From Sandaracinus sp. (GTDB lineage Bacteria > Myxococcota_A > Polyangia > Polyangiales > Houyiibacteriaceae): a stretch of 50,623 nucleotides of DNA. The stretch's first letter is position 1; each line of letters begins with the position of its first letter. Under the pieces are notes generated by a model that was given only the letters and a program-made list of their open reading frames with translations, did no database searches and was not told where the DNA came from. Position numbers and translations under genes: made by a program. The stretch covers positions 1 through 50,623 of the forward strand of contig PABA01000130.1 of the NCBI GenBank assembly GCA_002699025.1, given 5' to 3'. This document shows, one piece after another, positions 44,016 through 50,211 of the stretch.

Positions 44016-44421
44016 GGGCGCGCGGCTTCGCCGCGGCCCCGGGGGGAGGGTTTCGCCGCCTCCGGCGACGACCGGCCCCCGGCCGGGGGGATCGGGGAAC
44101 GCGGGCCCTCGTCGGGCAGCCGTCGACCCCGGCCTCCGCGTCGAGCCCGCGCGGGCGTGACGCCGGGCTCGCTTCGGCTCCGCACGCTCCGGCTGGGGGC
44201 TGGGGCTGGGGCTGGCCGGGGCTGGCGCTCGGGCTCGATGGCTCGTGCTCGGGCTCGATGGCTGGGGCTCGCAGGCTGGGGCTCGGGCTGGCCGGGGCTG
44301 GCGCTCGGCCTCTCGGCTCTGGCCTCCGGGCTTGGGCTCCCCCCTTCGGCGGCGTCCCGCGGCTCCTTGCGCCGCCGCTCTCCCGCCGCAACTCTGGCGC
44401 TCCCCCTTCGAAGAGGTCCCC
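44016..44421. other. Intergenic region with G-quadruplex-type tract and repeats
   Basis: Holds no protein-like gene. A G-run array at 44195-44221 (ggggg-N2-gggg-N2-gggg-N6-gggg) on the + strand fits the G-quadruplex pattern. From 44227 to 44270 ctcgggctcgatgg recurs twice with a 20-bp period, and the 24-mer at 44209-44232 is repeated exactly at 44285-44308. No clear promoter. Confidence 0.75.
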
Positions 44422-46005
44422 ATGCTCGCTTCCCGCCTCTCCCGCGTCCCCGCCGCGGCGCTCCTGCTGCTGCTCTCCCTCGCCGGCTGCAAAGAGGGCG
44501 ACCTCTGCGCGCCCCTCGCGGTCTCCGAGGACGGGACCCGCTGCGTCTGCGCCGGTGATCTCGTCGAGACCGACGATCCCTTCGTCTGCGCATGCCCGGC
44601 CGGAGAAGTCCCGTCCCCCGCCGACGAGACGCGCTGCCTCCCCGCCGACGGAGGCGCCCCGCCGATGGACGCCGGCCGCGACGCGGGCACGGACGCGGGG
44701 CCGGACGCCGGCCCCGACGCCTGCACGCCCACCACCTGGTACCGGGACGCGGACGAGGACGGGCGGGGCGACCCCGCTGAGACGACCACCGCCTGCACCA
44801 TGCCCGCCGGCTACGTCGCGAGCGCCGACGACTGCGACGACGGCTGCGACACCTGCTGGACCGGCGCCGCCGAGACCTGCGACACCGCCGACAACGACTG
44901 CGACGGCTTCACGGACGAGGGCGTGCGTTCGCTCCTGGGCGAGCCGCGCGAGCTCGCCAGCAGCCTGGGGAACGAGACGCGCCACTTCACGACGGCACAG
45001 TCCCTGACTGCTGGGGGCGGTCTCGCGTTCTACATCGAGAGGTCCGGGGCCACCCTCGGGGGCTCGGCGCGTTGGGTTCGGTTCGAGTCCGACGGTTCGG
45101 TGATGGGCTCGGCCCAGCCGGTGGGGAGCTCCGCCAACGGCCGTTGGCTGACCTCGACAGCGTCGGCCACGACGATCGTGGTGGCGTTCGTCCAAGATGG
45201 ACGGCTGGTGGCTCGAGCCTTCGACAGGCGCACGGGAGCCCCTTCGACGGAGGCCATCGAGCTCGCGGACTCGGCCCGGGCGCCAGCGGTGACCGCGCTC
45301 GGGACGGGATTCCTGTTCGCGTGGGAGGATACGAGCACCGATCAGGTCCTCTGGCGTGGCACCTCGGCCACACTCGATGGTTTCCTGTCGGCAGCGCCAG
45401 TCGCGGACATCGACTCCGCCGAAGACCACGGCCTGGGGGCCCGCCGCCTCAGCTGGGTCGAGATGGACGGGTCGCTCTTTCTCGTGCTGCTGGACGGATC
45501 CTCGGCCAACGAACGCCTCTCCGCTCGTCCTTTCGACGCAGATGGATTGCCCAGTGGCGAGTGGGCCGAGTTGCTGAGCTTGCCCCATCTGGCCGATTTT
45601 CGTTTGCGAAGCGATGGGGTCACCGGCCGCCTCGTGACCATCGAGTTGGCGTTCGGCGAGATGGCTCCTCCGCCTGCCATCCGCCTGCACGAGACGGAAG
45701 TCGTCGATGGGGTGTTGCGCGTCTCTGGCAGCCAAGCGGTGGAGTCCGGAACGGCCCTCTACACGTACGGGGAGCCGGGTCCCACGCCTCGCACTCTCTT
45801 CGTGACCCGCGTGGGAACCGCCGACACGGGCCTGTTTCTCTACCAGGGCGGCCACGATGGGTGGGAGCGCACCCTCATCCACCCGCGGCCCGCGGTCGCC
45901 TCCGCGAGCCTGATCGGCGACGCCCTGGTCTTCGCCGCGGGCGAAGACGCGGACCTCGACGACGTCCGTCTGCGCTGGCAGCGCCTCGGCTGCCCCGAAC
46001 CCTGA
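44422..46005 (+). CDS. Lipoprotein with MopE-type metal-binding motif
   Basis: A 527-aa exported protein; signal peptide LLLLLSLAGC (Cys23). A short Cys-rich N-terminal part (DGTRCVCAGDLVETDDPFVC) and Asp/Ala/Gly linker precede a MopE-like motif at about residues 106-170: YRDADEDGRGDPAE, then CTMPAGYVASADDCDDGCDTCWTG and CDTADNDCDGFTDEG. This Asp-rich pattern is known from putative metal-binding surface proteins. The rest, about 350 residues, is beta-rich (propeller-like). From about 44990 third-position GC drops compared with the first part. Confidence 0.77.
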   Translation: MLASRLSRVPAAALLLLLSLAGCKEGDLCAPLAVSEDGTRCVCAGDLVETDDPFVCACPAGEVPSPADETRCLPADGGAPPMDAGRDAGTDAGPDAGPDACTPTTWYRDADEDGRGDPAETTTACTMPAGYVASADDCDDGCDTCWTGAAETCDTADNDCDGFTDEGVRSLLGEPRELASSLGNETRHFTTAQSLTAGGGLAFYIERSGATLGGSARWVRFESDGSVMGSAQPVGSSANGRWLTSTASATTIVVAFVQDGRLVARAFDRRTGAPSTEAIELADSARAPAVTALGTGFLFAWEDTSTDQVLWRGTSATLDGFLSAAPVADIDSAEDHGLGARRLSWVEMDGSLFLVLLDGSSANERLSARPFDADGLPSGEWAELLSLPHLADFRLRSDGVTGRLVTIELAFGEMAPPPAIRLHETEVVDGVLRVSGSQAVESGTALYTYGEPGPTPRTLFVTRVGTADTGLFLYQGGHDGWERTLIHPRPAVASASLIGDALVFAAGEDADLDDVRLRWQRLGCPEP

Positions 46006-46131: not shown

Positions 46132-49100
46132 ATGAGTGGATGGCGTCCGCGGGAGCGGAGCCCTTGGGAGCGAAGTGTGCTCCATGGGGCTCTGATGTTC
46201 GTTCTCATGGCTTGCGGCGGCGGGGGCTGCTCGGGCTGTGACGGCTGCGGCGTCGAGCCGATCCCGGGAGGCTTCCCGATCGAGCAGCGAGTCCCGAACT
46301 CGGCCCAGATCCGCCTGACCTCCTCGGGCATCGAGTTCATGGAGAGCAACGCCGACGCCCTCGTCGGCTTGGCGCTGCCCGATGGGCTCGAGTTCGAGGT
46401 GCCCCCGACCACGACCACGGTCGACGCCACCGTCTGTGAGCCCGAGGTGCGAGTCTGCCAGAGCGGCGACTGCGTCATCCAAGGCGAGATCGCGAACCTC
46501 GACATCCAGCCCATCGACCCGAACCAGCTCTCGGTCACCGTTCGAGTGGAGCTCCAGAGCCGCCGATGCACCGCCAGAGACGGCGACGGAACGTGTATCG
46601 AGTCGGAGCGAGGCCCTCTCGACATCCGAACGAGTGGCGGCTTCCTGGGCGCCTGTAGCGGCGGCATCAACGCAGACATCGACACGCTCCGCGGCGACCG
46701 CCGCGACGTCGGGCTCGAGCTCGACATCCTGTTCGAGCAGGAGACCGAAGCAGCCCGCGCCGGCTACACGAAGGTCACCGTGACGCGAGCAGGACTCGAG
46801 GACGGTCGCAACCTCGAAGATGCCGACATCGACCTGGACGGCGATGGCGGGCTCATCGACATCTTGGTCGACGTTCTGGGGGGGCTCCTCCGCGGCATCA
46901 TCGTCGGGGCGCTGGAGGACCAGGTCTCGGGCATCGTCCAGGACACGATCGAAGACCAGCTCTGCACGCGCACCGGCGAAACTGGCTGCCCGACCGGCAC
47001 CGTCTCCGACGACCCGGCCGATCCCGAGTCTCTGTGCCGTTTCTCCGAGGGCGGGGAGTGCGTGCCCATCCTCCTCGGTACGGACGGCCAGGGGGACCTC
47101 GGCGCGGCCTTCCTCGGCTCCATCTCGCCGGGCACCCACGCGCCGGGGCAGTTCCTCCTCGCCTCCGGCGGCGAGGGAGAGGCCGTCAACGACGGCATGA
47201 GCCTCTTCTTCTACGGCGGCTTCCTCGGCACGAGTCGCGACTTCGAGACCGTCTACCCGCACAACCCGTGCGTCCCGGTCGTCGAGCCGCCGCCCATCCC
47301 GACCATCCCGCGCGTCGGAACCTTCCGCGGCAACAGCGTCCCGGGCCTCGCCGAGGATCCGCACGTGGGCATCGGTCTGAGCGAGTCCTTCCTCAACCAC
47401 GCCGGCTACGGCGCCTTCGACGCGGGCCTGCTCTGCATCGGCGCCGGCACGCCGCTCAGCCAGCAGCTCTCGACGGGCCTCTTCTCGCTGCTCGTCCCCT
47501 CGCTGAACCGGCTCACCTTCCCCGACGGCGCCTCGCCGCTGGCGGTCCTCCTCCGCCCGCAGACGCCGCCGACCTTCGAGATCGGTGAGGGCACGGCCGA
47601 GGACCCGCTCCTCGATGTCTCCCTCGAGCAGCTCCAGGTCGACTTCTACGTCTGGTCCAACGAGCGCTTCATCCGCTTCATGACCTACCAGGCGGACCTC
47701 TCCATCGACATCAACCTCTCGGTCGTCGACGGCGAGATCGTCCCGGAGATCCTCGGCCTCGAGGCCACGAACTCGACGGTCACGAACCAGGAGGACCTGC
47801 TCACGGAGCGCCCGGAGGCGCTCGCCGACATCATCCAAGACGTCCTCTCGAGCTTCGCCTCCATGGCCTTCGGCGATCTCGGCGGCTTCGCCCTGCCCGA
47901 CCTCATGGGTCTACAGCTCGACGTGCAGGAGGGCGGCGTCCGCGGCATCGAGGAGGGCGGCGAGGAGTTCCTCGGCATCTTCGCGAACCTCGCCGTCGCC
48001 GACCCGATGGCCCTCTCGGCGCCGGTGGAGACGCGCGTCGAGGTCAGCGACCTCACGCTCGACCCGGTCTCCATGCACCCGGACACCTGGCGCCAGGGTG
48101 AGATGCCCTACGCGCACCTCTGGTTCGACGGCGGCGGCCCCGCGGGCGTCGAGCTCGAGTACAGCTGGCGCATCGACGGCAAGCCCTGGTCGCGCTGGAC
48201 GACCGAGCGCCACGTCGTCATCGAGGACCCGGCGCTCCTCTTCCAGGCGCGCCACGAGCTCGAGGCCCGGGCGCGGGTCGTCGGCGAGCCGGAGAGCGTG
48301 GACCTCACGCCGGCGCGCGCCGAGATCCTCGTCGATCTGATCGAGCCCGAGATCTGGCTCGAGCGCGGCGCCACCGGCGTGCGCGTCCAGGCCTGGGACA
48401 TCGTCTCCGACCAGCTCGAGATGCGCTGGCGCATGCCCGGCGACGAGGCTTGGTCGGAGTGGCAGCTCGTCACGGACGAGATGGTGATCGACGCCCTCGA
48501 GGCGGAGGTCGAGGTGCGCGACGAGGCAGGGAACGTGGGCTCGGCCTCGAGCGCGCTCATCCGCGGCCGCGCCAACCCGAACGCCGACGCCGGCTGCGCG
48601 TGCGCCGTGCCCGGCGAGAAGTCGAACGCGCCCTTCTCGGCCCTCGCGCTCCTCGGCGCGCTCGGCCTGGTCCTCCGGCGCCGCCGGAAGGGTCTCGCGA
48701 AGGGTCGCGCGACGAAGGCGCCGAAGGAGGTCGCGCGGCACGCGCGCAGCTTTCTCTTCTTCGTCCTCCCGCTGACGCTCGCCATCGCCGGATGCGACTG
48801 CGGTGACGGCGGCGGCGGGGAGATGGTCGACGCGGGCCCGATGGTGGACGGCGAGGTGCCCGACGACGCGGGCCCGCCCGCGGCGCTCGTCCCCGGCCTG
48901 CTCGCGACGCACCTCGACATGGCCGCCCTCGACGACGGCTCGCTGGTGCTCAGCGGCTACAGCCCGGGCGCGCCGCCGCGCTCGGCCTACGGCGACCTCG
49001 TGATCGGCGTCTACGACGCCGCCGGCGAGAGCGTGGACTGGGAGATCGTCGACGGCGTGCCCGACGAGGCGCCCACGGGCGACCCGACCGGCTGGCGTGG

Positions 49101-50211
49101 CGGCATCAGCGCGGCCGGCGACGACGTCGGCACCTTCACGAGCGTCGTCGGCGACGGAGCGAACGTCCACGTGACCTACTTCGATCGCACCAACGGCGCG
49201 CTGAAGTTCGCGACCGGCACGCCCGGGGGCGAGTGGTCCACGCACACGGTCGACGACGACGGCTTCGCCGGCGAGTACTCCTCGCTGACGCTCGCGAGCG
49301 GCGGCCCGGCGGTCTCCTACCTGGGCATCACCGCGCCGGCCATGCTCCCCGGTCGCCCGGTCTCGGAGGTGCGCGTGGCGACGGCGAGCGGCGTGCCGAG
49401 TGGCCCGACCGACTGGACGATCACGGACGTGGTCACGGCCGAGATCGACTGCCGCCCGGAGCTCTGCCCGGAGGGCAGCACCTGCCTCGAGAGCGGCGAG
49501 TGCGTGATGCCCTCGAGCGACTGCACGGAGGAGTGCGCCGACGACACGGCCTGCGTGATGGGGAGCTGCGAGGCGGCCCTGCCGGAGGACTTCATCGAGG
49601 ACCTCGCGCCGGCCGTCGGCCTCTTCACGAGCATGGCGCCGACCTCGGGGGGCCTGGCCCTCGTCTACTACGACCGGGCCCAGGGCAACCTGATGGGCGT
49701 CGAGTTCGACGGGAGCGCCTGGGGGGAGCCCTTCCTCATCGACGGCTACGGCGTCGGCGACCCGGACATCGGCGACTCCGGCCTCTCGGCGACGCTCGCC
49801 GTGGACGCCGCGGGCGTCTGGCACGTGGCCTACGTGGACGGCGCCGAGGAGACGCTCCGCTACGCGCGCATCGAGGGCGGCACGGCGACGACCGAGATCG
49901 TCGACGACGGCTCGACGGACGGGACCGACCCGAACCCGGATGGCCGGCACGTGGTCGGCGACGACGCGGACCTGGTCGTGACCGATGGCGGCGAGGTGCG
50001 CATCACCTACCAGGACGCGACGGCGCAGCGGACCATGTTCGCCCGCAAGAGCGGCGAGGAGTGGGCGCTCTCGGTGCTCGACGACTCGGACAGCACCGGG
50101 TACTTCACGAGCCAGGTGCTGCTCGGCACGACCTCCTTCGTCGCCGCCTGGTGGCGCCAGGAGGCCCGCGACAGCCGCGACAACGGCGTGCGCGTCTACA
50201 CCGTCGACTGA
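46132..50211 (+). CDS. Two-part surface protein with internal MYXO-CTERM-like segment
   Basis: A 1359-aa protein in one uninterrupted frame. N-terminal signal ending MFVLMAC (Cys28). Part one (to about 820) includes DxDGD motifs and long beta-rich segments. Then comes a MYXO-CTERM-like tail: GCAC (Cys822 and Cys824), hydrophobic residues 833-849 (FSALALLGALGLVL), and RRRRKG. A basic stretch leads directly into a second lipoprotein-type signal (FLFFVLPLTLAIAGC, Cys888), a DAG-rich linker, and part two, with a Cys-rich insert (CRPELCPEGSTCLESGEC) and propeller-like strands. I see no start codon between the parts. It may be cut into two surface proteins. The ribosome site is weak. Confidence 0.8.
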   Translation: MSGWRPRERSPWERSVLHGALMFVLMACGGGGCSGCDGCGVEPIPGGFPIEQRVPNSAQIRLTSSGIEFMESNADALVGLALPDGLEFEVPPTTTTVDATVCEPEVRVCQSGDCVIQGEIANLDIQPIDPNQLSVTVRVELQSRRCTARDGDGTCIESERGPLDIRTSGGFLGACSGGINADIDTLRGDRRDVGLELDILFEQETEAARAGYTKVTVTRAGLEDGRNLEDADIDLDGDGGLIDILVDVLGGLLRGIIVGALEDQVSGIVQDTIEDQLCTRTGETGCPTGTVSDDPADPESLCRFSEGGECVPILLGTDGQGDLGAAFLGSISPGTHAPGQFLLASGGEGEAVNDGMSLFFYGGFLGTSRDFETVYPHNPCVPVVEPPPIPTIPRVGTFRGNSVPGLAEDPHVGIGLSESFLNHAGYGAFDAGLLCIGAGTPLSQQLSTGLFSLLVPSLNRLTFPDGASPLAVLLRPQTPPTFEIGEGTAEDPLLDVSLEQLQVDFYVWSNERFIRFMTYQADLSIDINLSVVDGEIVPEILGLEATNSTVTNQEDLLTERPEALADIIQDVLSSFASMAFGDLGGFALPDLMGLQLDVQEGGVRGIEEGGEEFLGIFANLAVADPMALSAPVETRVEVSDLTLDPVSMHPDTWRQGEMPYAHLWFDGGGPAGVELEYSWRIDGKPWSRWTTERHVVIEDPALLFQARHELEARARVVGEPESVDLTPARAEILVDLIEPEIWLERGATGVRVQAWDIVSDQLEMRWRMPGDEAWSEWQLVTDEMVIDALEAEVEVRDEAGNVGSASSALIRGRANPNADAGCACAVPGEKSNAPFSALALLGALGLVLRRRRKGLAKGRATKAPKEVARHARSFLFFVLPLTLAIAGCDCGDGGGGEMVDAGPMVDGEVPDDAGPPAALVPGLLATHLDMAALDDGSLVLSGYSPGAPPRSAYGDLVIGVYDAAGESVDWEIVDGVPDEAPTGDPTGWRGGISAAGDDVGTFTSVVGDGANVHVTYFDRTNGALKFATGTPGGEWSTHTVDDDGFAGEYSSLTLASGGPAVSYLGITAPAMLPGRPVSEVRVATASGVPSGPTDWTITDVVTAEIDCRPELCPEGSTCLESGECVMPSSDCTEECADDTACVMGSCEAALPEDFIEDLAPAVGLFTSMAPTSGGLALVYYDRAQGNLMGVEFDGSAWGEPFLIDGYGVGDPDIGDSGLSATLAVDAAGVWHVAYVDGAEETLRYARIEGGTATTEIVDDGSTDGTDPNPDGRHVVGDDADLVVTDGGEVRITYQDATAQRTMFARKSGEEWALSVLDDSDSTGYFTSQVLLGTTSFVAAWWRQEARDSRDNGVRVYTVD

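Follow-up and report, generated by a model that had tools for sequence, protein, structure and literature searches.

A 50,623-nucleotide contig of Sandaracinus sp. (PABA01000130.1, from a draft assembly in 238 contigs; hereafter the window) carries a single gene in which two predicted envelope proteins are joined through back-to-back sorting signals. The open reading frame (46132–50211, on the forward strand like all features below) starts with ATG, encodes 1359 amino acids and contains no internal stops. It specifies, in order, a lipoprotein signal, a first half of ~800 residues with BPI-like and FnIII-like parts, a MYXO-CTERM segment, a basic loop, another lipoprotein signal and a beta-propeller half of ~440 residues, a layout read from the sequence and from about 73 other fused-frame loci. 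Comparison of these sequences established that one frame with two putative envelope modules and a MYXO-CTERM/basic loop/lipoprotein-signal junction is conserved across Myxococcota. We consider that the gene probably encodes a conserved bacterial polyprotein, which would be cut by myxosortase after the first junction cysteine and by signal peptidase II (LspA) before the second.

The internal MYXO-CTERM (48586–48690) consists of GC822AC824 (Cys822 codon at 48595–48597), a helix at residues 833–848 and RRRRK at 849–853. TIGR03901 matched residues 819–852 with 29.1 bits against a cutoff of 20, and in a genome-wide search the segment was the best of 36 matches (36.3 bits in that search). It is not C-terminal, and 507 residues follow it. 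The protein thus appears to work like a MYXO-CTERM protein, but it is not filed here as a standard member. A basic inter-helix loop extending to residue 872 (48676–48747) comes next, and its sequence and the net positive charge of ortholog loops predict that it is cytoplasmic. It leads into a second hydrophobic segment (residues 873–887) and the lipobox I-A-G-Cys888 (together 48748–48795; Cys888 codon at 48793–48795), so that the second half begins with a basic n-region, a hydrophobic h-region and a lipobox, as expected of a lipoprotein signal. This signal is internal in the window and in fused orthologs and N-terminal in split relatives. An earlier note on this DNA had described a frame running without a stop from Cys822/Cys824 through a helix and an Arg cluster into AIAGC, with no recognisable start between the halves, and had called the first signal MYXO-CTERM-like; the sequence bears out each of these points, as no in-frame ATG, GTG or TTG lies between the Arg cluster and the lipobox and the TIGR03901 score exceeds its cutoff. 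Both enzymes are encoded in the same genome: myxosortase MrtC (NF040594, 255.9 bits, cutoff 195) and LspA (PF01252, 121.3 bits). In Myxococcus xanthus, myxosortase cuts beside the MYXO-CTERM cysteine, which is thought to be lipidated (PMC11980579).

The fusion was then followed across Myxococcota. Among 57 relatives, a tally made by hand from the result table gave 25 genomes whose two halves, or entire junction, lie in a single frame free of stops; in three others (G004, G008 and G044) the halves are separate. A scan covering each GTDB species by one genome yielded 78 named loci, about 73 of which had both halves in one frame according to profiles of the halves; the total of 78 fused frames comprises these loci, the window and five repeats of genes from the search of 57 relatives. 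Complete Sorangium cellulosum chromosomes (L072, L098 and L117) and Polyangium isolates (L060, L063, L067 and L093) are among them, and the loci span Sandaracinaceae, Polyangiaceae, Kofleriaceae, Myxococcaceae metagenome-assembled genomes and other Myxococcota. The conserved fused frame is no artefact. The earlier note had also proposed looking among orthologs for a stop codon and a separate start between the halves; this arrangement was found in a few scattered relatives only, and a maximum-likelihood tree of 70 first halves contained 65 fused and 4 split genes, with the splits scattered over the tree.

Junction statistics were based on 72 distinct fused junctions; the Kofleriaceae-like L109, which lacks the RR pair, was left out. 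The lipobox cysteine was invariant (72/72), and the residue before it was G in 66, A in 5 and S in one. The second MYXO-CTERM cysteine was retained in 70 of the 72. Loops ranged from 3 to 47 residues in length, and all 72 had a net positive charge (+2 to +13). No in-frame stop was present in 2710 junction codons, whereas the two alternative frames had 51 and 14. Among close relatives, the ratio of nonsynonymous to synonymous substitution rates (dN/dS) was 0.40 for the first helix, 0.54 for the loop, 0.38 for the second helix and 0.26 for the second half. These values argue that the junction segment is translated and constrained, and the value for the second helix, together with the conserved cysteine and −1 residue, supports its assignment as a signal. 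Conserved helices and cysteines around a loose, basic spacer loop are what would be expected if the hairpin were discarded.

Split relatives, which are rare, place each sorting signal at a true terminus. For example, in G044 the first gene stops soon after ..WRRRSSRR and the second begins through a TGATG overlap, with MNARTCLVGALALTLAGVANPGCSCG and its own lipoprotein signal, and G008 encodes the second half as a lipoprotein in a gene by itself. The fused genes probably arose from such stop-start-coupled gene pairs. The window itself has a perfect AAGGAGGT, resembling a Shine-Dalgarno (SD) site, within the loop at 48724–48731; the next 35 bases contain no start codon in any frame, and the site is possibly a relic of a formerly separate second gene. 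A first-half paralog is also present in the window genome (L002, G000:C204:535-2919); it is 45% identical, has a true C-terminal MYXO-CTERM and ends in RRRRGRRS*. No second half for this paralog was found in that genome.

In the mechanism we propose, the first half would be exported by Sec until the MYXO-CTERM helix halts in the membrane in an out-to-in orientation. The Arg-rich loop would remain cytoplasmic and serve in addition as the n-region of the second signal, whose helix would restart export from in to out. MrtC would then cut just after Cys822 and LspA just before Cys888, and the hairpin peptide between the two cuts would be discarded. The products would be two separately lipidated mature proteins in a 1:1 ratio, the first anchored at Cys28 and Cys822 and the second at Cys888. 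Topology, lipidation, both cuts and final location are predictions from the sequence. This two-cut model gives the best fit because both cysteines are conserved, the loop varies but is always basic, the signals of split relatives lie at true termini, and MrtC and LspA are present.

Several observations weigh against this model. The second lipobox departs from the PROSITE-type core pattern in 20 of the 72 junctions, and the action of signal peptidase II on an internal signal would be unusual. The NCBIfam model NF058595 (lipo-invert) scored 10.4 bits on the window junction against a cutoff of 37 and matched 8 of 15 orthologs with a best E of 0.0047 (E cutoff 10); with scores below the cutoff, it was rejected as the family of the junction. 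The gene structure would look the same if the product were a stable two-domain protein with its hairpin left uncut. The destination of the second half is a further point. In E. coli, Asp at position +2 of a lipoprotein is an inner-membrane retention signal. The predicted mature N-terminus of the second half is C-D-C-G, with Asp at +2, and the residue following the lipobox cysteine varies among orthologs. The proposal of the earlier note that one polypeptide would give rise to two surface proteins is thus partly supported: the two-cut model, with its predicted cleavage into two products, fits best, whereas the assignment of the second half as a surface protein is not supported.

Of the alternatives, an uncut product survives best: the gene would then encode a single protein of the inner membrane, its two periplasmic modules joined by a transmembrane hairpin. 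The conserved frame and a sound hairpin topology agree with it, and MYXO-CTERM proteins can persist uncut in a delta-mrtX mutant (PMC11980579). We regard it as rather unlikely, since it leaves unexplained why the lipobox cysteine and a small −1 residue are kept in 72 of 72 junctions while loop length and sequence drift, and why the two signals of split relatives lie at true termini. A single cut, for example by LspA with the first half retaining an uncut MYXO-CTERM hairpin tail, would be compatible with enzymes that act independently and with the unusual lipoboxes of some junctions; both motifs are conserved together, however, and we find this quite improbable. Synthesis of the second half mainly by internal translation initiation, which would make the fusion incidental, could draw on the SD-like site in the window loop and on the in-frame ATG present in the loops of some orthologs. 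Yet the window has no in-frame start, 40 of the 72 junctions likewise lack any, and only one combines ATG with an SD-like site, counts on which internal initiation was rejected as a general rule; besides, ribosomes finishing the first half would always make the second in the absence of a stop. We therefore give this explanation very little credence. Finally, there are assembly error and the two alternatives raised by the earlier note, sequencing error and stop loss (here, a recent one), which the draft state of the assembly might favor. They are refuted by about 73 further fused loci, since genomes assembled independently of one another, the complete Sorangium chromosomes among them, show the identical architecture, and their likelihood is close to nil.

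With regard to the two halves, the protein begins with a lipoprotein signal read from the sequence (46132–46215) that ends in the lipobox L-M-A-Cys28, and Cys28 is conserved in orthologs with a retained N-terminus. A BPI/LBP/CETP-like double TULIP module (residues 54–623, 46291–48000) was assigned using an AlphaFold2 model, Foldseek and VIA. The model of the first half had a predicted local distance difference test (pLDDT) score of 89.8 and matched human BPI over its full length (1bp1 in Foldseek, E 7.9e-19); in VIA, 1ewf gave Z 18.1 with 444 of 456 residues aligned and a root-mean-square deviation of 5.6. LBP and CETP were also matched, and the model is consistent with the two-barrel TULIP fold. 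Pfam models for BPI did not match the window protein, and PF01273 and PF02886 each reached E of about 0.005 in 3 of 46 orthologs. Full-length BPI-like proteins of the DUF4403 family occur in bacteria (PMC6791001). The modeled fold suggests that the first halves represent a widespread, unannotated family of BPI-like proteins on myxobacterial envelopes with almost no Pfam signal. Two FnIII/Ig-like domains (residues 629–810, 48016–48561) follow, corresponding to model residues 602–783 with Z of 8–9.6. After the second lipobox there is a low-complexity tether typical of lipoproteins (48796–48888), in which pLDDT was below 50 over the first 32 residues, and then the beta-propeller half with a Cys-rich insertion (residues 920–1359, 48889–50208; AlphaFold2 and VIA). 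The model of this half had a pLDDT of 91.4, and VIA placed the propeller near CylK (Z 33) and PLL lectins (Z about 29), with sialidase-like enzymes also near. Based on these models, the first half may bind lipids and the second may bind a ligand.

The same type of junction was also observed in other protein families. When 30 of the 36 MYXO-CTERM matches in the window genome were inspected, most ended within a few residues of the stop. In two frames of another, unrelated family, C24 (L156, 2212 amino acids) and C163 (L157, 2004 amino acids), the MYXO-CTERM ran on into a lipobox, and further fused copies were found in C6 (L179, 1838 amino acids) and C145 (L180, 1940 amino acids). According to domains named by eye, each of the four joins a VWA/MopE-repeat protein to a MopE-repeat lipoprotein whose end is formylglycine-enzyme-like. 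A split paralog pair occurs in the window genome as well (C19, L178), with an ATGA stop-start overlap and the N-terminal lipoprotein signal MSRLLQRFATLSALGLAAGALAGC; similar split pairs were found in G007, G010, G034 and G043. A junction profile run against 190 Myxococcota genomes revealed uninterrupted junctions outside the window family at G034:C128, G043:C1:41051, G141 and G158, and more were found by reading, outside the profile comparison with the window family, in G043:C1:6224513, G149 and G162. Some of these occur singly and may be young fusions. One frame of 1393 amino acids (L248, G149:C3:995500-1003000) has an internal MYXO-CTERM and lipobox and a second, terminal MYXO-CTERM (GCAIG..LRRRDRKGGL*), which would place three sorting sites in one chain. 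In L121 (G000:C100:77314), 67 residues that lack a second helix come after the MYXO-CTERM, possibly because of stop loss or a different tail.

The gene upstream of the fusion, at about 44410–46005, encodes a distinct lipoprotein (LLSLAGC), in which a MopE-type metal-binding motif was matched weakly. Beyond the fused gene the contig runs on for 412 bases. An all-against-all comparison of flanking frames gave no readable conserved neighbor gene, as antisense frames of the GC-rich DNA swamped it.

To our knowledge, bacterial polyproteins are rare. Bradyrhizobium FbcH, the cytochrome b/c1 precursor, is one that is split by signal peptidase I via an internal signal sequence; unlike the window protein, it relies on that peptidase only, yields respiratory subunits and involves neither a sorting tag nor lipidation. 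A Tat substrate of Haloferax volcanii with a non-C-terminal ArtA tripartite signal is reportedly processed by its enzyme (Abdul Halim et al., 2017); it shares a mid-protein sorting signal with the window protein, but the enzyme and signal are unrelated. With the MYXO-CTERM/myxosortase system (MrtX, MrtC), the window shares the GC-x-C motif, the helix, the Arg cluster and a genomic MrtC, and it differs in that a second protein follows the tag. Internal MYXO-CTERM motifs have already been called rare but real. In M. xanthus MXAN_5598, a likely gene fusion, the motif is also in mid-protein and the N-terminal part was proposed to be processed and surface-anchored (PMC11980579). However, the C-terminal part of MXAN_5598 forms a beta-barrel of the outer membrane and carries OmpA domains, whereas that of the window protein has a lipobox of its own and is a predicted lipoprotein. 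In addition, many genera have kept the window fusion, and fusions of this kind recur in unrelated families. The first half resembles BPI/LBP/CETP and bacterial DUF4403 proteins in its predicted two-barrel, pseudodimeric TULIP fold (PMC6791001), but no Pfam model reaches its cutoff and the half sits on a surface-sorting precursor with FnIII-like domains. The open literature searched contained nothing on bacterial polyproteins with internal lipoprotein signals, and within it three things appear to be new: the conserved combination of MYXO-CTERM and lipoprotein signal, its long retention across Myxococcota, and its reappearance in unrelated families.

If the two-cut model is true, the arrangement would be a new one, with protein parts released where two unrelated intramembrane proteases act on adjoining sorting signals, and it would bear on whether myxosortase and LspA accept internal signals. 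The fusion is conserved in culturable Sorangium cellulosum (strain So ce26, L072) and Polyangium fumosum (DSM 14668, L067) and is thus testable with known tools (mrtC loss, globomycin). Catalogues of MYXO-CTERM proteins and lipoproteins would change, as tools that consider only termini miss internal signals. The fused gene may also reveal, on the basis of its model, a family of BPI-like proteins on the envelope of myxobacteria. More broadly, the chances seem evenly balanced that this is a general myxobacterial strategy, in which envelope protein pairs would be made in one chain and split by two different intramembrane proteases at a common hairpin, the basic loop of which would work for both signals. 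Such chains would have been invented repeatedly from stop-start-coupled pairs and kept for long periods, and the fused precursor would be a natural co-delivery device that fixes a 1:1 ratio of lipidated partners.

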